DNA of 64,000 bases from Diphasiastrum complanatum (taxonomy: Eukaryota; Streptophyta; Lycopodiopsida; Lycopodiales; Lycopodiaceae): NCBI GenBank assembly GCA_029204225.1, contig CM055106.1, forward strand, positions 18,300,149 to 18,364,148, written 5' to 3'. Numbering within the stretch: position 1 is the first letter of the stretch; every line of letters begins with the position of its first letter. Positions 8,460 through 60,528 of this stretch are shown piece after piece. Both the position numbers and the translations under genes were made by a program. The notes beneath the pieces were generated by a model, which saw nothing but the letters and a program-made list of their open reading frames with translations, was not told where the DNA came from and made no database searches.

Positions 8460-8880
<421 letters not shown>

Positions 8881-16582: not shown

Positions 16583-18343
16583 AAATTTTAGGTTTCATTG
16601 TTATCTTTTTATAAGCACATTCAAGAGGCATATTTTACTTGTAATGATTCTAATTTTGTGTTAAGACTTCCTTAGCTTAACCATCCTTCAAAGGACAATG
16701 ACACCATTGACCAGGCTCTAGAGGATGATAATGTCAGTGGGACACACAGAGGTCACATGTGGAACCTTACATTAGCTCCAAGCCAAAGTTGCTACAGTAA
16801 CCTGTGGAGAATTGGCTCACTCTACTAGGCTTGTTGAGCTAACTTGTAACGAGTGTAGTTCCATAGAAGATGGATCTTACCACTTGATGGTCCTACATAA
16901 TTTGCCATGAAAAAGATTCAAGCCAAAGATAAGGTGGGATGCAAGTGTGTGCCTAAAAAAGGGGGGTACAATTTTAGGTTGGAAAAAAGAGTGGAGTTTG
17001 AAAAGGAAAATAAAAGGAAGAAGGGACGTGCTACTCACGTATGAGAGAGAGGTTAGACGTGTGTGGAACATCCTTGTCTATTATATATAGCTTCATGTCC
17101 ATTTAGAGGAGAGTTTCTCATATTATTATAATGCCTCGTCTTCATCTTCATAGATTTGCTCTCCTACAATGATTTGTTTACTCTCTTTTACTAAAATAGA
17201 GCATTTGTTTACACTTTTTTTTGCTAAGAGAGCAGCTCTTTGTGATATTTGCTGCTTGTATTTTTATCATTTCAGTTCACTATGCTGAAGAAATATCTGT
17301 TCATGAAGGATTAGGAAAAGACGAGGAAGAAATTAATAATGACAGACAGTATATTCACTAGTCTCTCTGATCTCTCTCTCGTTTGATCGATGGATTGATG
17401 GATCGATATTGTTTTGGGTGGAAGAAACCAGATGCCAGATCAGAGCAGCTGGGTGAGAGTGAGTTGATTGAAATGTATTGTGGGTTTTTGGTGATGGTTT
17501 GATGAAGCATGAGAGATATGTATTGTTGATGATGCGAAGTGGGTTTTTGATTTGCGCTCAGGTAGTAAGTATGGGGGATGACTAGGGGGCTAAGCTGGGC
17601 AGTCCCTGATCGGAGAATGCAAACATGGGTGGTGAATAGATCGTAGGGAGGTGTTTCTTGAGATGCTTCCAGGCGTTTTGAATTGTGGATTTTGATTTAT
17701 TCATGGAATGAGTAGCTGGTCGAGATGGGTTAGTAATTTATTGAAGGCGTTGGAGATGTCCAATTGAATCGGTCTTGAAAACTAATCAAAGGTCGCAGCA
17801 CGGAATGTAGACTATGTTCTAAGAGGCAATTGGTTCACGCACAATCCGGTTTTTTGTACCAGTTTCAGAATATCTGAGAGGTTGTATGCAGACCATCCTA
17901 GCAGATAATGGTTGCATTGAACACTCATCAGTGCGTGCAAACCTATATTTGCGCCTATACTCTTTAAGAACTTGGCTAGTATTTATTTCTATGTACCAGC
18001 CGATCCGAAATTATGGGATTTGCAAAAAGCAGGTAAGCATTACAGATTCAGCTGAAGCTCTTGCATTATTTTGTGATGAAAGCCTCTGAATCAATGCTGC
18101 AACAAGCACCACTGCTTGTTAATCCGACAGGTCATCAGAAACCCTGGGGGTCACGTACGTAGCTGGATCCAATTCGAGGAACACCGTTGTCTTATTAGGA
18201 AGATCGTAGTTTATGCTGCGGGACAGATGTAGTAAATAGCAAAGCATTATCAGATTAGCCTTTAAACTGGAGATCGTCGCTGAAGTATAAGATGTAGTTC
18301 GCTTTGCAAATTATTGACTTTCAAAGTAAAAGAAAGAGATATT
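16583..18343 (+). promoter_or_regulatory. Upstream region of the PERK gene
   Basis: No protein-coding frame is credible here. A TATATATAG box near 17084 is followed by CT-rich sequence (17355-17390, CTCTCTGATCTCTCTCTCG) of the type common in plant 5' leaders. I infer that transcription of the PERK gene starts in this interval, possibly with an intron in the 5' leader. This cannot be settled without RNA data. Confidence 0.35.
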
Positions 18344-21300
18344 ATGTCGGCATCATCTCCTACCAGTTCTACACAAGGAGGCTCTCCTCCCCCCACAGAT
18401 TTCTCTCCTCCATCGCCGCCCCCTCCTCCTTCCAGCGGAGGTAGTAATTCTGCTCCTCCTACCAGCGGAGTTGGCATTTCTCCTCCTCCTTCTTCCAGCG
18501 GAGGTAGTAATTCTCCTCCTGCTTCAAGTCCTCCACCTGTTCAGTCTCCTCCTCCTATAACTTCAAGTCCTCCACCTGTTCAGTCTCCTCCAGCTCCCCC
18601 TCTTGCTGACGCTCCTCCTCCTGCCAGCCCACCTCTTGCTTCTCCACCACCAGCTACACCTGTATCTCCACCACCGTCTAATGCACCTCCATCTCAGCCA
18701 TCACCAGCTACAGCTGTTCCTCCTCCGAATCCACCTCCATCTCAGCCACCACCAGCTGCAGCTTTCCCTCCTCCGGATGCTCCACCACCAGCCACTCCTC
18801 CTTCGGCACCTCCTCTGACAACAAATACTCCTCCGCCTGTGAATGGTGCTCCTCCGCCAGCTCCAGCGGCTCTCTCTCCTCCTAATCCAATAGTTCCGCC
18901 ACCATCTCCCCATTTGCCTCCCCCTCCCCCTCCCCTTCCACCACCTTCACCGTCTCCATCGCCCCCATTGTCTAATTCATCTCCTCCACCCACTGCGCCT
19001 CCTCCATCGACTCCCTCAACCCCATTGCCGTTTTTGGCTCCTCCCCCCACTGCACCTCCACCATCGCCACCACCTCCTGGTCTCGTCCCTCCACCATCGC
19101 CTCCAACTGTTGCCTCTCCACCTCCGAAACCCTCCCCTGCATCGTCCCCTCCCCCACACAAAAGTTCTCACGCGTCCCCTCCGCCACCCCACTCGTCCAA
19201 GGGATCGCCACCCCCTTCACTGCTGCCGTCGCCTCCACCAGCTTCTAACTCCACCACCACTCCTCCAACAGCATTACCCTCTAATTCAGCGATCCCTCCG
19301 CCACCAACACTAACAGCTCCATCACCACCAGGCGCTGTTCCTCCTCTACTGCCGCCACCTAAATCGCCGCCTCCAGTCTCATCGGCTTCAACTCCTCCAT
19401 TCAGGTCTGTCAATGGATCATCCACTCCTCAAGCTGCAATTGCTTCACCACCTGCTGGTGGCAAAAACTCGCCGACAAACGGGATTACTCCTGGGTCTAG
19501 CGGACATGGTGGCGGAGCGAATGGAACAATAATTATTGGCATTGCCGTTGGAGCAGCTGTTGCAGTGGCGCTGATTGCAATAGCTGTGCTGCTGTTCACA
19601 AGGAAGCGAAAGAGAAACAATTTTGGCAATGGACCTGAGTACGGATTTGTTGCTGCAGCAAGATCTTCATTCCAAAAAGGAGGTGCGCATGATCTAGCTA
19701 TGCTTACATTTGTCCCTAAACCTCATTTTTAGTTGTTAGTAATCTTCATGCGCGCGGTTCAAATTAACCTAATAGATACGACCTAATGTGTGGAAAGTAG
19801 ATGCCGCCCCTTGCCCTGATTTGCTTTAAAGATCTGTCGGTGGAAATTACATGCATTTACATGTTTACTTTGAGATTGTGTCGACATAATTATAGGTTGC
19901 CATAGCTGCTTGCTTTGTCTAAATCTAAGCTTTTTCCTGTTTATGAAAGCTCGTCCAGCATATTTGATAGTTGTAATTAGAAAAGCTGAAAGCTCATTCT
20001 TGAGTCTGCTCCAAACTTGTTTCAATGGTTGCATGCGTGTAGCTGCTTAATCATATTTGAATTATATTCAAAATCTTACTCGACTGGAAACCAAAAACTG
20101 AATAAGCAATATCCTGAACTTGCTCTTCGACGTTAAAAAAATAGACCAGTGTTCAATCTGTACGTGAATTTGACTTTCAAGCGCTAGTTTTATTCAGGAT
20201 ACATATTACATACATTTTTCGAACTTCAATGACGATCTTCAATTTTTCAAACAGTCGTTAGCTACTACTGTTCCAATTTGTGTTTCTTAGGATGCGGGGA
20301 TGGTGGATCTCGGAGATCAGAACGATACTTTGATTGATTGAGAGAGAGAAAGAGAGAAAGAGAGAAAATGAATGTAGAACGTGATCATTATTAATCCTAA
20401 CAGTTGGTACACTAGCACGATGCTCCAACATTAAGATGTGAAATCATAAATAAAGTGTAATATGCCAACAAGAGAACTCAATTTCGCTCTGGAAACTAAT
20501 GAGTATTTAGTTGTTTCACAATTCTTGTTCCCCTTCAGTGGTAAAGCTTTCGAATTTTTTGCTCGTGGAAGCTAGTCATGTGCTTGCCTTTAGAATTTAT
20601 ATGAGCAGTCAACCGAAATAACGTTTCAAGTGACGCCTTTTGCAATCACTTTTGCATCATCAGATGGATTGTATGATGGTAGACAGAGATTTGATGCCCT
20701 TTATTCAGGAGCATCTGATGCTAATGGAAGACCTTTCTACCCTCCGACGCCACCTTTCGGGTCAATTCCACCCCCACCTCAAGGCTCTTCTTCAAGCATG
20801 GGAAACTCAAGATCTTTTTTCACTTACCATGAACTTGAGGCGGCTACAAATGGATTTTCGAAGGATAATCTGCTGGGAGAGGGAGGTTTCGGGTGTGTCT
20901 ACAAGGGACATTTAGCTGGTGGGCAGGTTGTTGCAGTCAAGCAGCTCAAAGCAGGCGGAGGTCAAGGAGAGCGAGAATTCCGAGCAGAGGTTGAAATCAT
21001 TTCACGCATCCACCACAGGCATCTAGTATCGTTGGTTGGATATTGCATTGCTGAAAGTCAGAGGCTTCTGATATATGACTATGTTTCGAATGGCACTCTT
21101 GACCACCATCTCCATGGTAAATACACTGACCTTAGATTCCTGCTCTGCAATTTAGGTAGCTATTGTTATTGAAGCACACGATACTGACAATGATTATGCA
21201 TTCTTTGTAGGAAAAGATATGCCAGTGATGGATTGGGCCACAAGGGTGAAGATTGCACTTGGATCTGCGCGTGGGTTGGCCTATCTTCATGAAGACTGTA

Positions 21301-29490: not shown

Positions 29491-30850
29491 ATGACCAGTC
29501 GAGCCAAGATCAATATGCTGAAAGAGGAATTTCGACGAGCTTCAGTTCATGAGATGTCTGATACTTTCAAGAATTATACATTGGACGACGTGGTAATCAT
29601 GATGCCGCAAGCCCAACGAGAACCTGATCAAAGTCAGGAACCAGCGGAACAAGTCTTCGAGGGACCTGCGCGAACACAGTCGATGAATCTTGCGGAACTA
29701 GGAGAAGAAGAAAGGATAGTGCATGTGGGAGAGCAGTTAACACACATGCAGTTCAAGAGACTACGATCCTTGTTGGTGGAATATAAAGACTGTTTTGCCT
29801 GGAGCTATAGTGATCTAAAGGGCATTCCGCCAACAGTAGTCCAACACACCATACCTTTGGTGGACGGAGTAGTCCCCAAGGTAAGCTGTTACTACCGCTG
29901 CAACCTGAATTATACAGACTGATCAAGCAAGAATTGCAGAAACTTATGGATGCAAATTTCATTTACGAAATCGAACACACGGAATGGGTATCGCCGATAG
30001 TTATAGTACCCAAGAAGAATGGCAAAATGCGTATCTGTGTGAATCTGAAAGCGCTTAATGCAGTCACCAAGAAGGACCATTTTCTTTTACCATTTACGAA
30101 AAGTGTCCTCGATAGAGTAGCTGGTGACGAAGCCTACAGTTTTATGGACAGCTTCAGCGGCTACAACCAGGTGAAAATAGTCCCCCAGGACCAGCACAAG
30201 ACAACATTCGCCACAGAATGGGGAACTTATGCCTATAAAGTGATGCCATTCAAACTTTGCAATGCCCCAAGCACTTTCCAGCGAGTCATGTAGGCGGCAT
30301 TCAAAGATTACTTGCAAAGATTTTTGGAATTTTTCTTGGACGATTTGTGCGTGCATGGACCAGATCCAGAACACTTATCCAATTTGGAGAAGGTGCGACA
30401 AAAATGCCACAAATACCAGATCTCCTTGAATCTAGAAAAATGTCAATTTTGGGTGACGCATGGCTTAATACTCGGCCATATAGTGTCAAGACACGGGATC
30501 GCCACGGATCTATCAAAGAGCAGGATCATTGTTGATCTACCACCACCGGGGACGATCCGCGAGGTCTACATTTTTATGGGTCATGCTAACTATTATAGGA
30601 TCTTCATTCTTGACTTTACGGAGTTAGCAAGACCAATTTACAAGCTCACAACAGATCCACATTGGAATGAGGAAGCTCTAAAGGCTTTCCAGAAGATTAA
30701 GGATGCATTGGTCTCAGCACCAATCCTACGACCACCCAATTGGTCCATTGAGTTCCACGTGCATACGGACACATCGAAGTATGCAGTTGGAGCAGTCTTA
30801 ACCCAGCTAGGTGAACACAAATTTTTTTTTCCAATCCGATTTGCAAGCTG
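29491..30850 (+). pseudogene. gypsy reverse transcriptase (element B)
   Basis: Leading part: Y-K-D-C-F-A-W-S-Y near 29790 and V-V-Q-H-T-I-P-L. The RT core follows from 29934: E-W-V-S-P-I-V-I-V-P-K-K-N-G-K, F-M-D-S-F-S-G-Y-N-Q, N-A-P-S-T-F-Q-R-V-M, and the catalytic F-L-D-D-L near 30339, then L-G-H-I-V-S and Y-Y-R-I-F. RNase H begins at F-H-V-H-T-D-T-S-K-Y-A. The frame is broken after N-L-N-Y (29920) and by a TAG at 30291 where Gln is found in element C. The catalytic Asp pair is intact. Confidence 0.88.
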
Positions 30851-32289
30851 ACAACTCAGTGATACAGAAATGAATTATTCAATACAGACCATCAACCCTT
30901 GCTACATCTCGTTAATAAAACTTGCAACACCGAGAGAATCACCAGATGGCTCCTGTTGTTGTTGGAATTTGATTTTCGAATAGTAGTTCGCAAGGAAAAA
31001 CAACACTACATGGCAGATCATGTGTCACGAATCAAGGGAAAGGAGATTGCAACCCAACCCGTTGATGAGCTGGTAGATGCTGCCTTATTTTACGTGGATA
31101 CAGTACCAGAATGGGCTGCCGACATTGTTGAATATCTAATGCGGGCCCAACCAGACACATCACTACCAAAGACAGAACAGCGGAAATTGATCTTGAAAGC
31201 TAGACCTTATCAGCTGATTGTCGGCCAGTTGTACCGAAGAGGTCCAGATGGAATTCTTCGGCGGTGTATTCTTTCTCATGAGACTACCCAGATCATTTCG
31301 CTTTCACATGAAGGCATGGGTGGAGGTCATTTTGCATCTGACATTACAGTTCATAAGATCCTGCAATCAGGATGTTGGTGGCCAACGATTCATAAAGACA
31401 CAGAGGAATGCTTGAAAAAGTGCGATGTGTGCCAAAGGGCAAGGAGACCAACGAGGCTGAACTATGATCTACTGCACCCAGTCTTAGCCCAAGCACCATT
31501 CAAAAAATGGGGACTGAATTATATTGGTCCAATTCACCCTGCGACAAGGAGTTCCCAGGCTCGATACATAATCGTAGCCACAGACTACCTCACCAAATGG
31601 GTTGAAGCCAAGGCAGTAAGAGTAGCTGATGCTAGGAAGCCATTTCATCAACGAGACCATCAAGGTCCTGTTGGAAGAATTCTTCGCGATCCACAGAACC
31701 ACTACGCCTTATTATCCTCATGGTAATGGGCAAGCAGAATCATTCAATAAGATCTTGTGTAGCGTGCTCACGAAAACAGTTGAAGCTAGCAGATCAGATT
31801 GGGAACACAAGTTGCATGCTGCACTGTGGGCATTCAGGACAGCATATAAAGGGAGCATTGATCAAACACCCTTCCAATTGGTATATGGTCAGGATGCTAT
31901 GATGCCAGTAGAGTTTTTAGCTCCTTCATTAAGGATTGCCACCGCGCAACATCTTAATGAGTCCAAATCTCTACAGCTACGCCACGAAGCTCTGCATAAA
32001 CTCTGTGAAACACGCTTACTAGTTGTGCATGCACTGGCAGCTGAAAAGAAAAGACGCAAGGCTTGGCATGATCGCAGATTACAAAAGAAGGATCTTCATT
32101 CAGGAGATCTGGTCCTGATGTATAAAACCAAGGTGATCAAGGGGAAGTTAAAATTCACGGGCGAAGGTCCTTATAGGATCAAGGAAATTCTTAATCATGG
32201 GGCCGTGAACTTAGAATAGCTTGATGGGACACCCTTCGACACACCCATCAACGGTAGCCGGTTGCACAAGTACTGGCCACCACAATAAG
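30851..32289 (+). pseudogene. gypsy RNase H remnant and integrase (element B)
   Basis: RNase H is internally deleted near 30870, rejoining at T-D-H-Q-P-L-L. Integrase then has the H-H-C-C zinc domain (H-E-G-M-G-G-G-H-F, later C-D-V-C-Q), and the core with Y-I-G-P-I-H-P and D-Y-L-T-K-W-V-E-A. A shift near 31640 removes the central core Asp region; the frame resumes with Y-Y-P-H-G-N-G-Q-A-E-S, which supplies the catalytic Glu. The end is G-P-Y-R-I and R-L-H-K-Y-W. Integrase would insert the cDNA; this copy cannot. Confidence 0.85.
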
Positions 32290-34634: not shown

Positions 34635-34913
34635 TTCTACTGATAATCTTGAATCAGATGGCCACAGATTGAGAGAACTAATCTAAAAAATGGAATATTT
34701 TCTCCTTTTGGAGAGAATACATACCATAGAAACTTGCCCATCTCCCTATTGGAATTTCAGATTCTTGAGCCAAGTTTCCATTCCTCTCTTGTATTCATTC
34801 ACTATGGCTTGGGGGTGAAGTAGTTAGGGTATTGACTAGCCTCTTCATGTTGGTTGGGTGGTTTATGCTCCACATGTGTCCTTTTGGTTTGCATGTGATT
34901 GATCTGAGTCAGA

Positions 34914-36191
34914 TTATCCAGCATCTGACTCAGAGCTCAAGAAGATATGGGGTCTCTTGGCCGGGATACGTCTAGGAGAAAGGGAATCAGCTGGCCTTCG
35001 AGATCCAGCCTTCTTGGAGACAGGCTGCTTCCTCTTCCTCCTAGAGGTAGTCTGCAAGTCTGTTCTATCCAGAGACAGGTCTCTGGAGGTGCTGGCATTA
35101 TCAACATGCAGACCAGAATATCGGTCCCGAAGCCTTTTGAGAATGACAAAATCCTTTGGCATAATGGTGACACGCTTACCATGCACTGCCAAAAGACAAG
35201 TATCCTTAGAAAACTAGGACATAAATTCTTCCTCAGCACCTTGTAAGGCCTGCATATCTGTCACGGCAAAACGAACATTCAGCCCAAGTGACAGAGTGAC
35301 ATTCCATATAGATCGACCGAAAGGAGCTCTAGAAATCAACAATTCAGTTGATCTCTGGAGTTTTCTGATCTCCCTCAGGCAGACCTGCTTCCTGCTGTGA
35401 AAGTACTATACTTTAGAACCATAAATGGATCTACAAAAGATCCACAAGAGTGATTGGATGCTTGCTTAACAATCTATCAAAAAACTAGACACAAAAAAGT
35501 TGATCTAGATTGGCAATTTGACAAACAACAAGCATTAACAATCAAAAGCATTGATCAACATTGAAATCCATGCCCACACATGTGTACTATAGGCTGTAGT
35601 ATGGCCTTCAACCTGAGAAACAAGTAGAAATTGATTTTGTTTCATTTGGATCACAAAAACTCAATGTACATAGTGAACTAGCTTGAGATTGCCAATGAGC
35701 TCCAAAAATTTTCTGTCTTCTCACTATGGAGAGAGGGAATACATAGCAAATTCGACTTCCTTCTTGAAGTTAGATGGATTTCCAGCATGTAATAAGGAAG
35801 TTAACTCACTCTCCTTGACCTAAAATGAAACCCTAAATTTTCCTAGAGTCATGCTTGGTAGATAGCTAGTTGGTCAAATTTTCACCTTAAATCTAGGATT
35901 TAGGTCCTATAAACTAGGAATCACTACCAAAATGACATGACCAACCCTATGGACTTGACCTAAACTACATTAGGAGTGGATTTCCACGTGGCATCTTGGC
36001 CTCACATGTGTGGAATTCACTTATGTACGAAATTTACATTATACTACATGGTTTTTTATTAAGCTAGATTTGTGACTTTTTGACAATTCTTCACACCTGC
36101 CATGCCTACGGCCAGTACCAAGAGGGACACGAGAATGAGATTGCTGTATAGTGGTTATGGCACAGGCAATGGATTTGGTCTTGGACATCAT
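34914..36191 (-). pseudogene. Divergent histone H3-like gene with C-terminal extension, split by a solo LTR
   Basis: Two minus-strand coding blocks, 36191-36096 and 35390-34914, are separated by a 700-bp LTR plus one copy of its target duplication; without these the frame is continuous for about 190 codons. The N-terminal tail is only ~36 residues and starts M-S-K-T-K, recalling the A-R-T-K of H3. From residue 37, L-R-E-I-R-K-L-Q, S-T-E-L-L-I, then A-L-Q-G-A-E-E, and A-V-H-G-K-R-V-T-I-M-P-K-D follow the H3 alphaN and histone fold without gaps, with about half the residues identical to canonical H3. A ~65-residue basic extension with R-R-K-R-K-Q-P follows, likely a nuclear signal. A single TAG at 35214-35216 lies where H3 has G in loop V-G-L-F. 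Canonical H3 normally ends soon after the fold, so the extension is unusual. It lies antisense just beyond element B. The H3 homology is strong; the role is unknown. Confidence 0.88.
35396..36095 (-). repeat. Solo LTR inside the H3-like gene
   Basis: Exactly 700 bp, TGTGAAAGTA ... TCTTCACA on the plus strand. It is flanked on both sides by a perfect CCTGC duplication (35391-35395 and 36096-36100). Its interior matches, in reverse, the 3' LTR starting at 63397, and its minus-strand end matches that of the LTR at 40718-41534 (ATCACTCTTGTGGATC ... TTTCACA). Palindromic ACACATGTGT and CACATGTG boxes lie near 35577 and 36004. Confidence 0.93.
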
Positions 36192-36269
36192 TCTCAAAAG
36201 AAGAACATTAACAAAAAAAAGTTTGAACAAAAGAAAAGTGGATGAAAACAAAAAAAATTTCGATAAAAG

Positions 36270-37070
36270 GGCGCTTGAGATCGATACCAGAACTGAATAT
36301 CAGTTTCGAGCGCAAGATCTACACAGATTATTTTAAGAAAAGAGATGCATGCTCGAAAGCGATATTGGACTATGCGGTATCGGTCTCGAGTGCACTGTGA
36401 GAGAGTGGAAGCTTGAACGGTGAGAGAGTGTGCTTGAGAGCGATATTGGGAGCGAAAATCAAAAATTTTGCGAAAAAAATGAAAATTACGAGGACTTATA
36501 TATATGAAATTTTTGCACATGTGAAAAGACGGCCGAGACACGTGTCATCAGTTAATTTGTCCACGTGGAATGTTCGTATATACAATGATGACCCAATTAT
36601 GAGGCCATGTGGGCTGGGACACGTGCACCAATCCGTTCTCTACGCGTGTCATTCTCGCACATGACAGATGTCAGATCAATCATTCTAGGTACGGCGCATT
36701 AATTTTGACCAATCACAAGTCGACACATGTTCCTTCGCCACTCCTCCACACATGCAATTTTTTTTTATAAACAGGTCTTTTTCGGCTCGAATTTTCACGC
36801 AAATTTACAATTGCTTGGCCGGAGATCGATTTCAAGCGCATCGTTTGCTCTGATTACCCTCTGTTGACTAATTTGCGTTTGGAACTGATATTGCCTTGTC
36901 CGGTATCGCATTCAAGTGTGCATTGCATCTCCTTTCTTTTGTGCTCCGTGTTCTTGCGCTTGGATCCAATACTCCAACCTGTAATATCTCTCTCGAGCGC
37001 ACATTGCCTTGACGTGCTTGCCTGACCTGCAGTTTGCGCCTGAGAGCGATATTTGGAATTTTACTTCTGT
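36270..37070. repeat. GAGCGATATTGG-type degenerate repeats
   Basis: Repeated phrases such as GCGCTTGAGATCGATACC, GAAAGCGATATTGG, GAGAGCGATATTGGGAG, CTGATATTGCC and GTAATATCTCTCTCGAGCG occur in both orientations. A consensus near GCGCTTGAGAGCGATATTGG seems to underlie them. It begins just upstream (minus strand) of the H3-like start, so it may hold that gene's promoter or be a retroelement minisatellite. Confidence 0.55.
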
Positions 37071-37084
37071 TGTTTTTGTTTAAA

Positions 37085-37426
37085 ATGTCTAATTTTGATT
37101 CTAATTTGCTTTCTTTTTTTCATAAATTTGGTATTAATGATAGGTTGGAGTATTTCAAATCTCTTTTTTCTCCTTTTCTTTTTATTCTACCTTTTATAAC
37201 TGAGGGCGCTGGTGTGGAGGTATTTTTAGAGATATATCTCAGATTTAAGTCTCTGCTCAATATTCTGTTATTCAGATCTCAGAATAAGGACACGATTCAT
37301 TATCAGGACCTGGTGGCACTCGACAAGCATATCTATAAAGCTAAGCTTGACATGTTGTCTAACTTTTTCCAAACTTCACCATGTTGTCTAACTTTTTCCA
37401 AACTTCTACTTTGTGTATACGAGTAG
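37085..37426 (+). CDS. Hypothetical ORF behind the GATATT repeats
   Basis: Starts at ATG 37085 (M-S-N-F-D-S-N-L-L) and is Leu/Phe-rich. It has no family I recognise. Like the extra ORFs of elements B and C it begins just after a minisatellite with an M-S-type start, which is the only hint to its nature. A 29-bp tandem duplication (about 37350-37407) lies at its end, so the last residues are probably not original. Confidence 0.3.
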   Translation: MSNFDSNLLSFFHKFGINDRLEYFKSLFSPFLFILPFITEGAGVEVFLEIYLRFKSLLNILLFRSQNKDTIHYQDLVALDKHIYKAKLDMLSNFFQTSPCCLTFSKLLLCVYE

Positions 37427-38370
37427 AACCTCCTTCTTCAAAATCTTGAGTTGTTGCAATAATTTCTTTCCAAACCGTGTATTGAACCTTGGATTGTTTG
37501 CCAAAATAATTTGATAAAAATCTTTGAGCTTTAGATCCTCCAATGCTTGGCTTGCATGGAATATTTCCTGTTTTACCTAATAGTTTGTCATCTTTTTTTA
37601 TTTTAACGTGGCCTTTATGTAAGCCTGCTTTGGACAACACATCTTCTAATCTGGAAATAGCTTCCTTCGCAGAGGCCTCTGGTTCAGAATTCCATGCAAA
37701 CAAGATGTGAAGATATATTATTTTTTCTATAATACGCACCTCCGCATGCAATGTGCGGATATGAACATTTCGTAGAGGAATCGGTAGTACAGGTTTTTAA
37801 TTAGGATCTTCTTGATCTCTTGATATTCTGTACTCCTTGTCATGTTTATTGTTGTTTTCATGCAGTACAAACAAGGGTGTTTAGAATTAGCGCCATGAGA
37901 TACATTGAACATACAGTTTAATGTCTTCAAGTCTCCTGCTAAATGCCATTCAATGTTGAAAGTGCCAATTCTAAGAATATTGAGTGGAACTCCCTCATGT
38001 GATTTTTTATGGTGGCAGAATATGATGTTCTATTAAATATCCATGAGAGAATGTCATGGTATTCTTTTAGCACCTATAAGAGAATACAAAAATGTGATTA
38101 GCCTCATAATTTTAACACAGAGAAGATTTTTATATGAAATTCATATTCAAATAATTATCCCTATTTATTATGCGAAGGAACTGCTATACTTGAAATGCTG
38201 CCAACCACCAGATATCATTTTCTGATTGAACACTAAAGTTGAGGCCTTCTGAGTCTTCTGAATTTGAAAGTGCTCCATTCATGATGGTGAGACTAACTCT
38301 TTCCATTTTTTGTCCTTTTATAATTTCAGACTCATCTAACTTGAGAACAACTATCAACTTGTTATTGACA
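37359..38370 (-). pseudogene. Unrecognised protein with H-P-C-L-Y-C motif (broken)
   Basis: Successive minus-strand frames give a coherent protein. First D-E-S-E-I-I-K-G-Q-K-M-E-R-V-S-L-T and E-N-D-I-W-W-L-A-A-F-Q, then A-G-D-L-K-T-L-N-C-M-F, S-H-G-A-N-S-K-H-P-C-L-Y-C, then I-R-T-L-H-A-E-V-R, and G-K-T-G-N-I-P-C-K-P-S-I-G-G-S-K-A. The GDLK ... HPCxxC layout recalls uncharacterised proteins of transposons, where a C-x2-C pair could bind zinc, but I cannot name a family. Stops and shifts show it is dead. Confidence 0.5.
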
Positions 38371-38769
38371 TTCTCATTTGTAAAAATTTATGATGAATGT
38401 TAATAACTGATTAATGTCAATAAATAAATTGTTTGAATTGTTATAAGCTAGACTTTCTCTTTTCGAGCAATACACTTTATTGATATGAGATGGATTACCA
38501 ACTATTGTCTGCATACCTTGGTTTAAGATGTCTCTTTTTTTTAAAAGATGATTGGATCACAGTAACCCAAAAGGCCATTTTTACCATGACACATATAGAT
38601 TATTAACTGACTCACCGAATGAAAATCTGATTGTTGCAATGAATATGGATCAATAGGATACAATGTTCCTGATGACCATAAATCTACATGCTTTAGCTTT
38701 TCCTCCCTGTATCGAACCATATCAAAAGTTGACAATTTGGGTTGCTTTGAATTTCTTGTCCTGAGCGGA
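38371..38769. other. Unassigned AT-rich stretch
   Basis: Only short minus-strand frames are present; the one at 38541-38735 is unrecognised. It may be a further part of the protein with the H-P-C-L-Y-C motif or the outer flank of the next copia relic. Confidence 0.3.
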
Positions 38770-39380
38770 GCATGCTGAATTCACACGTGTGGGACGCCCT
38801 ACACATGTATTTTTGATCTCCTAAGCACAATAACACCATAAAGATCAGACTAGCATTGGTTGTCAATAGGAAAGCTGATGATACAAGCAATATTATTGTG
38901 CTACAAGCAAAATCTGTCAAATCCTAGGTCAAATAGATCTAGCCCCCAAGCTATGGATCAATCTCAAAGAGGAGTGAGGCATCACACCAGCAGCATACGG
39001 CTATTGTTTCACAATCAAGGATACACTAGTGAGAGCCCAATAGGTATACTTATACCCTCCAAAGTGTTGTAAAGCTACCTTTACAAGCTTTAAAGTGAAA
39101 GATGTTGATTTTCCATCAAATTTTGAGACAAAATCTCATAGATTTATATACATGTCCATTCGGATTTAGGGTTTAGGGTTACCCTTCAACCATGTAAGAT
39201 CTAAGCCTGAAGTCAGTACCCTAAAATAGGCCATCAACCCAAGGATTGACCTTGAGATCTTGAGATCCTTCAACAATGTCAAACATACTAAAAATAGTCC
39301 TGCATTATCTGTACAAAGCTAATGTACATTTTGTACTCACTTGCAAAGATGCCAGAAGACCTCGTGTGAGGAACTAAACA
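38770..39380 (-). repeat. copia-type LTR-like sequence
   Basis: Carries the CACACGTGTG box (38783) and ACATGTAT of the local copia LTR family, plus two tandem plant-telomere-type units TTTAGGGTTTAGGG near 39166. It lies beyond the end of the minus-strand copia pol, where a 3' LTR is expected. Borders are not resolved. Confidence 0.45.
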
Positions 39381-39479
39381 CATGGTATCAGCCATATCAT
39401 CACTTATGATCTAGTGGAATTTTACATTGCTAGTATTGTGATAAGTCAATACTCCTACTGCCAATCTACCTAGATGATA

Positions 39480-40360
39480 GCATAACTTTGCTCATTAAAC
39501 CTAAGGCTAATCTAAGCCTAAAAAATGTAGCCTTTTGAAGAGGCTTTGTCAAAATATCAACAATACTTTCATTAGTTGAAACCGTTGCTCCAATGAGATC
39601 TCCTTAGCTTGGACATTTTCCCTTACAAAATGGTGGGCAATTTCTATGTCCTTGCTCCTTCCATGATAGATTGGATTGGATGTTAGGTGTTGGGCCGAGA
39701 CACCCTCTCCAATGAAAGTTGCAAATGAACTTGTTGACAATGCAACGATCTTGGGTTCTGATTGAATTGGCTTAGCCTGTATACTGCAAATGCTATATCA
39801 AGTCTAGTGTTGTATACAACAATGATCCAATCAACCTTCGATAGGGTGTATTGGCCATTTGCTTCTCTTCTTCGAGAGTTTGCAGGCAATCTGCCTTGCA
39901 AAGTATCGTTCCAGGTATGATGGGAGTATGCACACCTTTGCATTCGATCATGTTGAAATCTTCGATGATTTTTTGAATATACTTTTGTTGGTGAAGATAC
40001 AACTTGCCACCCTCAAAGTCTCTTTCAATTTGTAAGCCTAAATAGCTTCTTGCTTCTCCTAGGTCAGTGAGCTCAAATATTCCAGAAATGTCTCTTTTTA
40101 CATCTGAAATTGAGTATCATCTATATGAACAGTTAGAATGATAATTTCACCTTCGACATGTTTGATATAGACATTCGACTCAGCGAAAGGTTTGAAGCCT
40201 AAAGAACGTAGTGCTTCGTCCTCCTTTTTATACCATTGTCTGGCTGCTTGTTTCAGACCATAGATGCTCTTATTCATGTGACATCCGAATATTAGATATT
40301 CTTGACTTATAAAACCCAGTGGTTGCTCGTCTGTTCTTGCAAAAGAAATTTTTTTCTTGC
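39480..40360 (-). pseudogene. copia reverse transcriptase/RNase H (minus)
   Basis: On the minus strand from 40360: a V-H-I-D-D-T version of the YVDD catalytic segment near 40110, S-Y-L-G-L-Q-I-E-R, Y-I-Q-K-I-I-E-D-F-N-M, then Y-R-R-L-I-G-S-L-L-Y and, after a deletion, S-K-D-I-E-I-A-H-H-F-V-R-E and D-I-L-T-K-P-L-like end. Most RNase H is missing. The N-terminal half of RT is cut near 40370. Confidence 0.83.
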
Positions 40361-40717
40361 GGGATGTTAGAATCGGCTTCTATAAGTGACCATGTTAAAT
40401 TAAACGTTAGAATTGACGTTAAATTAAATCATTGATTGACCAACTTGCTACAGTCTGATCACCCATTCTCGATAATAATGTCGTCATGTCTCTCTTAGGA
40501 AGGCTTCCTACTTCTTATGATCATTTAGTCATGTTGATCTCTACACAGCCGGATTTATAAGGTCACTTCAATTCTTCTCCAAGAAGAACTTCGAAGGAAG
40601 TAAAATGATGTTTCTACATTAGAAAACTTGGTCATACTATATTTGAAGAAGAAGCAGAACTCAAAAAAAGGCGTTGTCCATAGTTCAAAGTAAGATACTC
40701 AACATCCACCACAACAG

Positions 40718-41534
40718 TGTGAAATTGTCAAAATCACGCTTGATCTAGGCCAAATCTATGTACATATCATAAATGCACATGTGTGGATCATGTCACTTGT
40801 CATTTAGAATAGTCCTATAGGTTGTACATATCATGTTATTTGAGATCTAGTGGCTAAAATGGCCAGAATCTAGTTTTCTAGCTATATGCCACTTGGCATC
40901 ATTTTATTGGTAGGAAAAGCTATTTCACATGGGTAGGAGTGATCTCACATGTGTGTAGGACTACTCACACATGTGAAAACATCAGTAGTGGGTGAGATCC
41001 CACTTGTAGTAGATATTTGTGCAAGTCCCTATAAATTAGAAAAATTACCTCAAATCCAGGGAGGTGGCTATAAGTTAGGAATCTTGGATCATGTGCCATA
41101 TTGATGATTATTGGTGGATCCTATGATGAATAGGCACTCTCACACGTGCCAAATCAGTTGAGTCAGCAGCAGCTCTTGTGTATATATAGAGCCTCATTTG
41201 GCCATAATCAATAAGCAAGTGAAATCTTGGTTTTGGAGCATTTCTTGAGTAATTTCACTATTTGTCTTGTGATTTTATGCTTCTATTGGATTCTAATCTT
41301 AGTGTAATTCATTCTCTGCTAGTAGTTCGTACTCTGACAGGTTTTCACATGCGTGAAACCAACAAGGCATAGTTTTGATCATAATTGATTGTTCTTGTTA
41401 GATTTGTTGATGTAGAATTTATCTAATGAGCTCTAAACTTGTGTAGATTGGTAGATCAATTGAATCTTACACCCAATCACTCTTGTGGATCTGATTTGGA
41501 TCCATTCTTGGTCCTCATTTTTTGTATTTTCACA
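40718..41534 (+). repeat. copia 5' LTR
   Basis: 817 bp from TGTGAAATTGTC to TTTTCACA, directly followed by a primer binding site. A TATATATAGAG promoter element is at about 41183, and several ACACATGTG/CACGTG boxes lie upstream of it, in the U3 position. Only a short stretch of the element body follows. Confidence 0.88.
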
Positions 41535-41547
41535 TGGTATCAGAGCC
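41535..41547 (+). other. Primer binding site, initiator tRNA-Met
   Basis: TGGTATCAGAGCC directly after the LTR end; this is the standard plant copia primer site, complementary to the 3' end of initiator tRNA-Met. Confidence 0.95.
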
Positions 41548-42639
41548 AAATACAAGAGCATTAATGGCATTGATCTAAGCTACACCCAAATTAGCAAGTT
41601 TTTGGAAACTAGCTTATCTTGAGGTAGCAAGTTTGAATAGATAGATAGAATCATTATTTTTGTACTAGATCTTGTTGTGGACTGCAAGTGTACTTTTCCT
41701 ACGTGTGGGGCAATACAGAACCAGTTCTGAACAAAACATAAGACAAAGCATCATAAATGCCTCTACTCGACTAGAGAGAGAAAATAGAAAGTACAAAACT
41801 CGTGGAGAGAGAGAGGGCACAAAGAGCTTGTCTCCAAATTTGCATTACACACAAATTTCATCATATTCTCAATGAGAGTACATCACATATATAGATCCAT
41901 GGACTCTTCTCGTACTTGAAGTTGAATTGGACTTGTGGATCCACCTCTCAAGCTATCTAGACTTATCCAAGCCACCTCACTATGTCTAATTGTGCCACAT
42001 AGTCTTTTCATGCATTAAATGTGGCATGTAATGTACAAATGGCAATTCCTATGGTAGCTCGAGTTTCTACTTCTACCTACCTTGAATATTTTATTCTAAG
42101 ATGGGTCTTTACTAAGCCAAAAGAGCTCAATTCATCTTTGGCATTTTTAGGACCCATACTCACAACATTAGATAGATTTTTCAATATTTTGACAGAGCAA
42201 ATTCTGGTGACAGATCCACATGAAGATGATAAAGCTTTGTCATCAGTACAGTAGTATAGTAACAAACAACACAATGATAATAACAAAGCTGGAGATGGCG
42301 CTAACGACTCTGCTGGAGATAGAGATGGTGCTAAACACTTGTTTTTGACCTTGGAGATAGAGATGGCGTAGGCTTTTTTTTTCATAAATGTCACTCCTAA
42401 TTCAAAATACTGAGTATTTCCAGCTATTGGGAGGGAATACTTCAGATTTTGAAAAATTAATATTTTAACTATGGCTAAGCACCAATGAAGTTTGATGTGA
42501 CTAAACTAAGGTGCATTCATTTACATGGAAAGTAGTTCGGACAGATGCATAAAGAAGTTAGAAAATGATATTATAATTACTTTATAGGTATTTTTTTTCT
42601 CTCCTACATGGCATTTCTTATAGGGTCCTCTTTGGGCCC
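41548..42639. other. Copia leader remnant and unassigned sequence
   Basis: After the primer site a short leader-like stretch runs to about 41670, then the sequence changes character (a TACGTGTGGGG box near 41700, AG-rich run near 41805). No gag follows, so the copia element is truncated. Between 42000 and 42640 nothing is recognised. Confidence 0.4.
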
Positions 42640-42650
42640 ATATTTTCTCT

Positions 42651-43604
42651 AATGTGTGAAGAAACGGGCCACTTCATGGTTGACTGTAAAGCAAAAAACC
42701 AATACCATGCTGAGTGTCCAGACTGTGTTCACAAGCACAGTTTCAAAGACTGCCCTAAGCAACCTAACAAGATCCTCCCAGCACGACATATTTCATCAGA
42801 ACCTATTAGAGTCCTTACTAGAGCTCAATGCCAAAACCAACAACAGTAGCAAAACATAGCAAAACTAGCTGACCATACGGGAAGCTCCTTGATAGCTTCC
42901 ACTTTACCAAGAGATTACCCAGACCCACACATGGAACAAAGGCAATACAACAAATTTCAAGATGAGTTTTTGTAGGAAGAACAAAAAATAGACGGTCTGT
43001 TATTTGCCCCGATCCTCAAAAAAGAGCAACCCCTACAAGGACTCCAAGTATTCTCTGAACCTCTACAACTCAAATCACAATGCCCTTCCATAGCACAATG
43101 AAATCATTCACTGGTCTTCAAAGTTATATCCATCATAGTTTTCAACTGCCCACTATTCCAAATGAACAGTGAAAGCCAGATGAGATTCCAGAAATTCCTC
43201 AGATTCCTATGAATTTGATGAACATCGGTGTTGCTAAGGGGACTAGCATTGCCTTAAATATGACCTATAAAGATTGTTTAGCAATATCCGCTATCCTTGA
43301 TAGTGGATTAGGCGTAAACATAATGGCTTTGTCACTAGCAAAGTCATGGGAGTTTCATTAATTAGATCAGCCACATTACAAACTTCGTATGGTTGATCAG
43401 CAAGTCACAGACCCTGTAGGTCACTTATCGAATATACCAATACATATTGCAGGAGTCAAATTTACTATAGATTGCGTAATCCTCGATTTACCAGATGATG
43501 CAAATACATATCAGCTCCTTCTTGGTACACCTTGGCTCCAGATGGCAGGTGTTGTCCAAGATTGGAAGAGAAGCAAGATAACCTTTGGCAATAATGAAAA
43601 ATGA
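42651..43604 (+). pseudogene. gypsy gag knuckle and protease (element C)
   Basis: Starts with C-E-E-T-G-H-F-M-V-D-C, a CCHC-type knuckle, followed by C-P-D-C ... H-S-F-K-D-C, a second Cys/His cluster. Protease follows with A-I-L-D-S-G-L-G-V-N-I-M (active site D-S-G) near 43295, then H-I-A-G-V-K-F and L-L-G-T-P-W-L. TAG codons at 42847 and elsewhere fall in Gln-rich context. Confidence 0.78.
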
Positions 43605-44513: not shown

Positions 44514-46067
44514 GCTAAATCTTAAAGATCCTGATGAAGATGTAGATCACATTGTTCACATCGGAGCCCACCTCACGCCGGGTCAACTTTTTGATCTAGA
44601 GACCTTACTCCGCAAATACAAGGATGTATTTGCATGGAATTATACTAAAATGAAAGGGGTCCCGTCTGAAATAGCGGTCCATACTATTCCCTTAGAGGAG
44701 AACGGTAAGCCTATTCGAGCTAAGCCATATCGAAGTAACCCTGTTTATTGCGAGCAAATCGATGAAGATATTAAGAAATTGTTGGATGCTGGCTTCATCT
44801 ATGAAGTCCAACATACTGATTGGGTATCACCCATTGTGATAGTACCCAAGAAGAACGACAAGTTGCATATCTGCATCGATATGAAGAATCTTAACGCGGT
44901 TACGAAAAAAAACCATTTTTCCTTACCCTTAACTACACAAATCCTTGAGGAAATGGCAGGAGTTGAAGCTTTCAGCTTCTTAGATGGGTTTAGTGTCTAT
45001 TTTTTGGTCCAAATTGCTCTAGAAGATAGATGCAAAATCGCGTTTGCCATAGAAAACGACATTTATGCTGATAATGTCATGTCTTTTGGCTTATGCAATG
45101 CCCCTTCAACGTTTCAGCGGGTCATGCAAATGGCCTTCCAAGACTTGCTACACAGGATTGTCGAGATCTATCTTGATGGCCTTGGTGTACATTCCTCGGT
45201 GGACAAGTACCTCAAAGCTCTAGAAAAGGTCTTCATTCACTGTCGTAGGTTTGGAATCTCACTAAACCCTGAGAAATGTCAAATCTAGGTAACCATGGGG
45301 TTGTCCTTGGACATATCATTTCGAAGGAGGGTATTTCTACAGATCCTTAAAAAATCAAGGTTATAGTTAAGATGCCTCTCCCAACCACGATGAAAGAAGT
45401 TTATGTGTTCCTAGGCCACACTAACTATTACCGCATCTTCATAATCGATTATGCTGGTAAGGCATGACTAGTTTATTTAGTTGTGGTAGACCCTAGATGG
45501 ACCGAGGAGTGCATCAAAGCTTTTGAGGAGTTAAAAACAGTGCTCACAATAGCTCCCATACTTCATTCCCCAAACTACACAAAGGAGTTTCACGTACATA
45601 CAGACGCAAGTAAGTATGCCATCGGGGGTCTCCTAACACAATCGGATGAGTATGGAAAGGATTTTTCAATACATTTCTTGAGCGGGCAATTGGTGCCTGC
45701 TGAAATAAACTATACAACAATAGAGAGAGAAGCATTGGCCATGGTCTACGCTGTACAGCAACTTAGACATTATTTACTAGGGCAAACATTCGCCTTCTAT
45801 ACAGACCATCAAGCCCTGTTATACATTGTTAATAAATCTTGTAAAACAGGACGCATAGCTCGATGGCTGTTAATACTCGAGGAATTCAATTTTCAAATAG
45901 TCGTTAGGCAAGAAACACAACATTTCATGGCCAATCACCCTTCCCGACTTCCTAATGCTGAAAAGGCGGATGCACCAGTAAACGACGATCTTCTTGATGC
46001 ATGTCTGTTTCAGATTGATGCCACACCCTTATGGGCTGAGGAGATCACTCAGTTCCTCAGCCCATAA
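44514..46067 (+). pseudogene. gypsy reverse transcriptase and RNase H (element C)
   Basis: RT is open from about 44514 to 45288: Y-K-D-V-F-A-W-N-Y, V-H-T-I-P-L, W-V-S-P-I-V-I-V-P-K-K-N, F-L-D-G-F-S, N-A-P-S-T-F-Q-R-V-M-Q. The catalytic segment reads Y-L-D-G at 45169-45180 where Y-L/V-D-D is required, so one metal-binding Asp is lost. A TAG at 45286 replaces a conserved Trp. RNase H (45483-46067) is open: T-D-A-S-K-Y-A-I-G, E-R-E-A-L-A-M-V-Y, T-D-H-Q-A-L-L, and A-R-W-L. Confidence 0.9.
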
Positions 46068-47494: not shown

Positions 47495-47905
47495 CATTGG
47501 TCACCATCTCGACCGCGTCATTTGGTCACCATCTCGACTGCGTTATTTGGTCACCATCTCGATCGCGTTAGTTGGTCACCATCTCGACCGCGCCAGTTGG
47601 TCACCATCTCGACCGCGCCAGTTGGTCACCAACTCAACCGCGTCACTTGCTCAACATCTCGACCGCGCCAGTTTGTCAACACCTCAACCATGCCATCATG
47701 TCAACACCTCAACCGAGCCATCACTTCAACATCTCAACTGAGTCACCTGCTTATCGTCTCAACCGAGTCTCAACCTTCAAATTTTGACCGGGCCACAACA
47801 ACGTCGTTCCTTAAGATTTTTTGAAATCTTGACCACGTCTTCCCATTACGATGTTGACCAAGTCGGGCACTTTTAAAAATCTCGACCGAGGAGAATCAAA
47901 GAATG
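47495..47905 (+). repeat. 25-bp minisatellite, main array
   Basis: About twelve consecutive 25-bp units of the type GGTCACCATCTCGACCGCGT plus a 5-base spacer (CATTT, TATTT, TAGTT, CAGTT). Units lose conservation toward the 3' side, where CTCAACCGAG replaces CTCGACCGCG. All three forward frames stay open through the best part because 25 is not a multiple of three. Confidence 0.93.
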
Positions 47906-48480: not shown

Positions 48481-48640
48481 ACTTCCATTTCGACCGCGTC
48501 TATCCATTACCTTCTCAACCGCGTCTATTCGTCACCACCTCGACTGCATCTATATGTCACCTTCTCGACCGCGTCTATCCATCACCACCTCGACCACGTT
48601 CACCTGTCATAGTCTCGACCGAGCCGAGCCTCTGTCAACT
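48481..48640 (+). repeat. 25-bp minisatellite, second array
   Basis: About six units with the same CTCGACCGCG core and 25-bp period but spacer TCTAT and CACCACC/CACCTTC in place of CACCATC. It lies about 600 bp beyond the first array, so one ancestral array was split or seeded twice. Confidence 0.88.

Positions 48641-60384: not shown

Positions 60385-60528
<144 letters not shown>

Follow-up and report, generated by a model that had tools for sequence, protein, structure and literature searches.

A divergent histone H3 gene in the window, by which we mean the whole 64,000-nucleotide stretch of Diphasiastrum complanatum DNA analysed here (C15:18300149-18364148 of the 1.745-Gb genome), belongs to a degraded copy of a plant DNA transposon that we call family A. 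Besides the H3-like gene, elements of this family contain a transposase-like gene and at least two further genes, named D and E.

The H3-like pseudogene and the transposon copy around it

The minus strand of the window at 34914-36191 codes for an H3-like protein (Table 1). From LREIRKLQ to VTIMPKD, it aligns without a gap to the genome's own H3, from alpha-N to alpha-3, with 37 of 76 residues identical, whereas 10,000 shuffles of the window peptide gave at most 15 identities. The Pfam Histone profile matched the first half of the window copy with E 9.5e-7 (29.5 bits, above the cut-off of 26.4) and the second half with E 2.8e-4 (21.5 bits, below that cut-off); in relatives, it reached 80 bits (copy L039 of family A) and 101 bits (copy L047 of family B, described below). 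The best 60 PDB sequence matches listed were all H3s, H3 variants or chains named histone domain-containing protein. An earlier note, made from the letters of the window, had described a divergent H3 that aligns gaplessly over these 76 positions with about half the residues identical, and the identities and the Pfam match bear this out. The short N-terminal tail lacking ARKS motifs and the basic C-terminal extension that it reported are likewise present. The extension recurs in the genome: a query made of the C-terminal half of the window protein (99 residues), for which the best 150 of 5,377 first-look candidates were scored (the window's own place included), matched 92-99 of 99 residues at 81-100% identity in 150 of 150 places. 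In the window, a stop closes the C-terminal part; some other copies stay open for about 140 residues more. Neither the profile search nor the conservation of the extension speaks against reading the protein as an H3 variant.

An in-frame TAG at 35214-35216, overlooked by the earlier reader, who had counted a single frame of about 190 codons once an LTR was discounted, splits the fold, and the window copy is therefore a pseudogene. The LTR insertion itself was recognised correctly: the insert has TG..CA ends, GCAGG is duplicated at its borders (36100-36096 and 35395-35391), and a second copy of the same LTR lies at L044 1304-2008 (91% identical). An intron in its place, for which GT..AG borders would be possible, is ruled out by these ends, the repeated GCAGG and the second genomic copy.

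The left terminal inverted repeat (TIR), the transposase remains and the H3 gene of the window copy all lie on one strand. Relative to the copies L049 and L052, about 850 bases are absent between 38551 and the region from 38557, and 38774-42192 looks like an insertion, without match to the compared element pieces; the right half of the transposon found no match within the 64-kb window. A free-standing H3 variant gene is not supported, and what the earlier note raised as a mere possibility, a multicopy and element-borne gene, is upheld by the left TIR, the genome-wide pattern counts and the linkage to the transposase given below.

Table 1 Positions of the transposon copy, the H3-like pseudogene and the LTR insert in the window
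Feature	Position	Strand	Basis
Whole recognisable transposon copy	34901..42654	-	Homology ends at 34901
Left end of transposon, TIR CATTAGAGAAAATATGGGCCC from about 42654	42193..42654	-	84-85% identical to L049 and L052
Transposon 5' region	38557..38773	-	93-95% identical to L049 and L052
Frameshifted remains of transposase-like gene (LKLDESEI; AGDLKTL..HPCLYC; HIRTLHAEV)	37360..38551	-	91-92% identical to L049 and L052
Remains of promoter region and 5' part of divergent gene D (opposite strand to H3)	36507..37352	+	85% to L041 1113-1960; reading frames
N-terminal tail part of H3-like pseudogene (MMSKTKSIACAITT...GRRHG)	36101..36191	-	Aligned to other copies
Solo LTR inside H3-like gene	35396..36095	- (taken as that of the H3 gene)	TG..CA ends, 700 bp
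Histone H3 fold (KQVCLREIRK...VTIMPKDFVILKRLR), split by in-frame TAG at 35214-35216	35127..35390	-	
Basic Ser/Arg/Lys-rich C-terminal extension, stop at 34914-34916	34914..35126	-	Matched in 150/150 scored places

Elsewhere in the window, a 472-residue open frame at 18314-19732 (plus strand) is very proline-rich, has a hydrophobic stretch near its end and coincides with a GC-rich, C-skewed patch at 18-20 kb; it had no Pfam match, and to us it resembles exon 1 of a PERK gene (proline-rich extensin-like receptor kinase). Two retrotransposon polyprotein remnants with RVT_1 and RNase H lie at 30312-31726 and 44650-46067 (plus strand), the former with an integrase zinc-binding domain too, and both are Ty3/gypsy-like as judged by reading. 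Long AG/CT dinucleotide repeats, perfect or near-perfect, occupy 8499-8674 and 60389-60525, and minisatellites with a 25-bp period and TCGACCGCGTC-like cores occupy 47497-47738 and 48490-48621.

Ends, copy number and insertion sites of family A

Element ends were determined for family A only, family B being known from its gene neighbours and families A', C and D from the H3 frame only. The ends of family A are 11-bp TIRs, CATTAGAGAAA..TTTCTCTAATG, with subterminal hairpins. The left end is sharp in five of the six loci compared (L045 is cut short), and the right end is common to three of five (L042 and L043 stop earlier). A C precedes ATTAG in 17/17 left ends and a G follows CTAAT in 13 of the 15 distinct right ends, so that the termini with TIRs are CA..TG, as in the CMCT clade of transposons, with the G missing from two of the 15.

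Genome-wide, a 26-base H3 motif (up to 3 mismatches) occurs at 1,143 places, the left end at 1,198 and the right end at 1,045 (each with up to 2 mismatches), and the reversed controls gave 0 throughout; these pattern counts may be inflated by allelic contigs of one locus. Since the counts for the H3 motif and for the ends are similar, we infer that the H3 gene is present in most element copies. A copy at C1:33126502-33135397, for which both ends are known, is 8.9 kb long. At C1:48.4-50.2 Mb, a run of 16 exact matches to the right end, 14 of them on the plus strand, suggests local amplification of this end. The right end also lies less than 2 kb from a canonical H3 gene at L002 and L003 (C11:51246170-51249547 and 51298922-51302299), an arrangement present in two copies about 53 kb apart, perhaps a duplicated segment.

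Both ends were sought for 23 copies and obtained for six. Five of these have G after the right end and no visible target-site duplication (TSD); in the sixth (L079/L044) the base is T, and with runs of T flanking the element on either side a duplication is ambiguous. Joining the flanks of L075/L076 gave a sequence that, with up to 3 mismatches allowed, occurs uninterrupted at 347 places, and two of these match exactly. The L074/L039 insertion sits inside a copia integrase frame, and its joined flanks occur at 2,667 places with 1-3 mismatches and at none exactly, nearly all those listed differing by one base at the junction. Both empty sites fit insertion of CATTAG..CTAATG with a TSD of 0 bp.

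Other transposon types were considered. Helitrons are marked by a 5' TC, a 3' hairpin with CTRR, a Rep/helicase and the lack of TIRs; the right end of family A resembled CTAA/T, but both ends are TIRs starting with CA, and the element pieces scanned had no Rep/helicase match in Pfam. A hAT element was rejected, since no TSD was seen where 8 bp would be expected and eight transposase pieces had no hAT match in Pfam.

A transposase-like gene linked to the H3 gene

Upstream of the H3 gene and on the same strand lies a transposase-like gene with the motif order LKLDE(S/A)EI, DLKTLKCM, C(2)C, H(4)H and QGMEKSH (QGMKKSH in copy L045). The C(2)C (HPCLYC, NFCIYC) and H(4)H (HICTLH, HFCTMH) motifs were read by eye from the transposase alignment, and the catalytic D, D and E were guessed from position, without a profile match. 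Eight pieces of the transposase gave no significant Pfam match, and none was significant against the PDB (best E 0.49, judged chance). From these motifs, the gene product appears to be a CMCT-like DDE transposase, in or near the CACTA/EnSpm-Mirage-Chapaev-Transib (CMCT) group. CMCT elements are published with TSDs of 2-5 bp, as given in the available passages of PMC12730594, whereas 0 bp fits the two empty sites here; because of this difference we call the element CMCT-like and do not file it as a member.

When the best 150 transposase places were compared with the best 150 H3 places, 17 were shared, within 10 kb, on one strand and with H3 downstream, and another arrangement occurred 0 times. 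Full linkage would give 19.7 such places, treating both lists as random draws from the 1,143, and no linkage 0.26. Two of the 17 (C3693 and C3995) show the same distance and may be allelic.

The same neighbours recur in family B: the transposase-like gene and genes D and E all lie beside its H3 gene, whose orientation relative to them is different. By BLASTP, the pieces shared between A and B matched with E values of 6.6e-23 (H3), 1.7e-19 (C-terminal end of the transposase), 1.9e-10 (gene D) and 1.0e-14 (gene E). In the scanned pieces of the transposase, gene D, gene E and a coiled-coil frame, no Pfam family rose above its cut-off; a 'BAH-like' label for gene E had no supporting match and was dropped. 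At L042 6404-7198 (minus strand), two frames of no known family, likewise without a significant Pfam match, are present, one of them containing IKATDISKCYENIPLYG, which to us recalls reverse-transcriptase motif A of telomerase-like enzymes.

Further H3-like families and their tails

The places listed by a genome-wide Pfam Histone search fell into three score classes: 163-165 bits (13 places), about 95-110 bits (137) and 83-84 bits (three). The top class is canonical H3 in the six frames read (L002-L005, L007 and L008), and the two places read of the lowest class (L111 and L112) are H3.3-type exons. Among the 17 read of the 137, five belong to A', the sister of family A (L100, L101, L106, L110 and L113), eight to family B (L095, L096, L098, L099, L105, L107, L108 and L109, besides L047 and L048), two to family C (L103 and L104) and two to family D (L097 and L102). 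Patterns for A' and B were found 782 and 204 times, with 0 in the controls, which brings A, A' and B together to 2,129 pattern matches. Of the 204 B matches, 90 are exact, which suggests that the family is young, with the reservation that the pattern was taken from a stretch invariant in nine B copies.

The tails differ among the families and the fold is kept. Canonical H3 and H3.3 have a tail with ARTKQTARKS and ARKSAP and end at about 136 residues. The tail of family A is another one and is joined by the C-terminal extension; among the copies having these sites, K4 is present in 20/20 and K9 in one of 20, the copy with lysine at position 9 being L042. The A' copies begin with MDRRKQTRRD. In family B, copy L047 starts with MARTKQTARD; its tail, some 320 residues long, contains SR and poly-proline stretches, and the protein lacks a C-terminal extension. 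None of the A, A' and B copies read has the ARKS motifs that surround K9 and K27.

Selection on the histone fold

Pairwise rates on the H3 fold (Nei-Gojobori) were obtained from copies picked by protein similarity or Pfam score, a choice that favours intact proteins. The A' pair L101/L113 gave dS 0.54 and dN 0.046; a second A' pair, L100/L106 (0.34 and 0.099), was excluded because its loop 1 alignment is shifted by one codon. The D and C pairs gave dS/dN of 0.50/0.117 and 0.23/0.121, two B pairs 0.05/0.026 and 0.10/0.021, and A pairs 0.06/0.061, 0.14/0.048 and 0.10/0.042; in one A pair (L039/L042), dN equals dS and no constraint is visible. In comparisons between families or of element with host H3, dS is at least 1.9 and dN 0.31-0.54.

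Within family A, pN/pS was calculated from 22 non-redundant copies, 13 near-identical ones having been dropped from 35. It was 0.57 in the first half of the fold, which lay outside the search query, and 0.37 in the second half. Outside the fold, the values were 0.54 for the tail, 0.53 for the extension and 0.83 for the sequence downstream of it. Because these copies had been selected for resemblance of their protein to the C-terminal half of the window protein, the values for the second fold half and the extension are biased. Residues 1-121 are free of stop or gap in nine of the 22 copies, the window copy not among them. The rates indicate purifying selection on the H3 fold, moderate in family A.

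Origin of the element H3s and relation to CENH3

The earlier note took the unlengthened loop 1 as an argument against a centromeric H3; this argument is weaker than it was put, since loop 1 has no extra residue in family A but one in the sister family A'. In a tree of 19 folds that includes three provisional CENH3/CENP-A reference sequences, A and A' group with support 98/99 and B, C and D together with 85/82, all element H3s fall on one side of a branch with 46/71, and element H3s join plant CENH3 with 82/83. Topology tests rejected neither the placement of B, C and D with H3 (p-AU 0.24) nor that of A and A' with plant CENH3 (p-AU 0.27). A LIPxAPF motif is common to the element H3s and the provisional plant CENH3 sequences. 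Capture may have happened once or more than once, and either H3 or CENH3 may have been the source.

Proposed function and alternative explanations

Methylation of H3K9 and H3K27 silences plant transposons. On balance, it seems probable from the fold and the tails that the element H3 pairs with host H4, enters nucleosomes and gives silencing-resistant chromatin. Entry into nucleosomes is proposed because the fold and the HxKRVTI.PKD region are kept. An element H3 that still pairs with host H4 would form nucleosomes, probably on the element's own DNA; a tail with K4 but without K9 or a K27-like ARKS could yield chromatin that the host cannot silence through H3K9/K27 methylation; and in such chromatin the transposase might stay expressed or the DNA accessible. 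The retention of K4 together with the loss of K9 suggests an anti-silencing H3. It is possible, and we put it forward tentatively, that over repeated transposition a lineage of plant DNA transposons has kept and diversified an H3 of its own to counter silencing.

The element H3 could instead descend from a host H3 gene captured by chance and carried as dead cargo, as has been reported for Pseudocercospora fijiensis. This fungal precedent (PMC6710886, as far as its available passages go), the stops or gaps in many copies and the just moderately reduced pN/pS of family A would suit such a passenger; we nevertheless regard it as rather unlikely, given an H3 motif about as frequent as the element ends, a gene set kept in two diverged families and a fold dN well below dS within A', within D and between families. 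The kept fold might also serve as a working part of the transposition machine, binding or bending nucleosomal DNA or choosing targets, rather than replacing host H3. Such a role would agree with the linkage of H3 to the transposase in the same orientation, with the long in-frame part that follows the H3 domain in A and with the HxKRVTI.PKD stretch kept in A and B, which we take to lie at the H3-H3' and DNA contacts of known nucleosomes. However, H3 and transposase are encoded by distinct genes, and in B the H3 gene is oriented differently with respect to its neighbours; we judge this role unlikely.

Several genes of no known family side by side, and the existence of viral H3s (PMC9145170), might point to an endogenous large DNA virus whose remains, with a viral H3, were amplified as repeats. 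Short TIRs, sharp ends and clean insertion into repeated host sequences argue against such an origin, as does an IMG/VR scan with the A profile, in which 0 of 37 pattern matches encode a relative; a PHROGs scan gave one match, with E 0.083. We hold a viral remnant to be very improbable. That the copies are a host gene, for CENH3 or an ordinary H3 variant, together with its scattered pseudogenes is scarcely credible: the LIPxAPF motif shared with plant CENH3 and the branch at 82/83 speak for it, but these depend on provisional references and weak support, with other arrangements not rejected, and the copies are bounded by TIRs and linked to a transposase. This last reading may describe where the gene came from rather than what the copies are.

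An H3 kept and diversified by a transposon lineage against silencing would, if true, provide a nucleosome-level counterpart of the VANC or TET/JBP cargo of other transposons. Core histones are among the most constrained eukaryotic proteins, and diverging H3s in about two thousand mobile-element places, their tails altered and their fold retained, would make nucleosomes a battleground between transposons and host silencing. The element H3s would also offer a natural series of altered tails for asking which residues silencing needs, and H3 counts in such genomes would be inflated by transposon copies.

Comparison with known systems

Anti-silencing cargo is described for TET/JBP-carrying fungal transposons (PMC12730594) and for VANC of Arabidopsis Vandal elements (PMC13317346). 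Like these, family A is a transposon with an accessory gene that, by the function inferred here, would act on chromatin; unlike TET/JBP and VANC, which act on DNA methylation, its cargo is a nucleosome subunit. With the single H3s of viruses, in the portions available of PMC9145170, it shares the coding of a host-resembling H3 by parasitic DNA, and it differs from them as a chromosomal TIR element, in the scanned pieces of which no viral gene was recognised.

The CMCT clade is characterised, in the available passages of PMC12730594, by C(2)C and H(3-4)H motifs between the second D and the last E and by mostly CA..TG termini. Family A shares these termini and, as read by eye, the two transposase motifs, and departs from the clade in the lack of a TSD in the two insertions tested; those passages mention no histone gene for the clade. 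No plant transposon with an H3 gene was found in the open-licence literature searched, and in the accessible text of a 2026 review of gene capture by plant transposons (PMC13317346) the word 'histone' occurs 0 times.

Capture of H3 by transposons is already known from fungal hAT elements, in Pyrenophora tritici-repentis (H3L; 26 H3-like copies; PMC3538342) and in P. fijiensis (784 copies; PMC6710886). According to the excerpts available of the latter paper, the capture is old and common to several fungi, and the P. fijiensis copies have 8-bp TSDs, are all RIP-inactivated and are truncated in 90% of cases. The plant elements resemble these hATs in being amplified TIR DNA transposons with genes for a transposase and a divergent H3-like protein. 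The plant case differs in the type of transposon, with CMCT-like ends and motifs and no TSD in place of the 8-bp TSD, and in the diversity of its H3s, which comprise several diverged lineages with differing tails and apparent selection on the fold.
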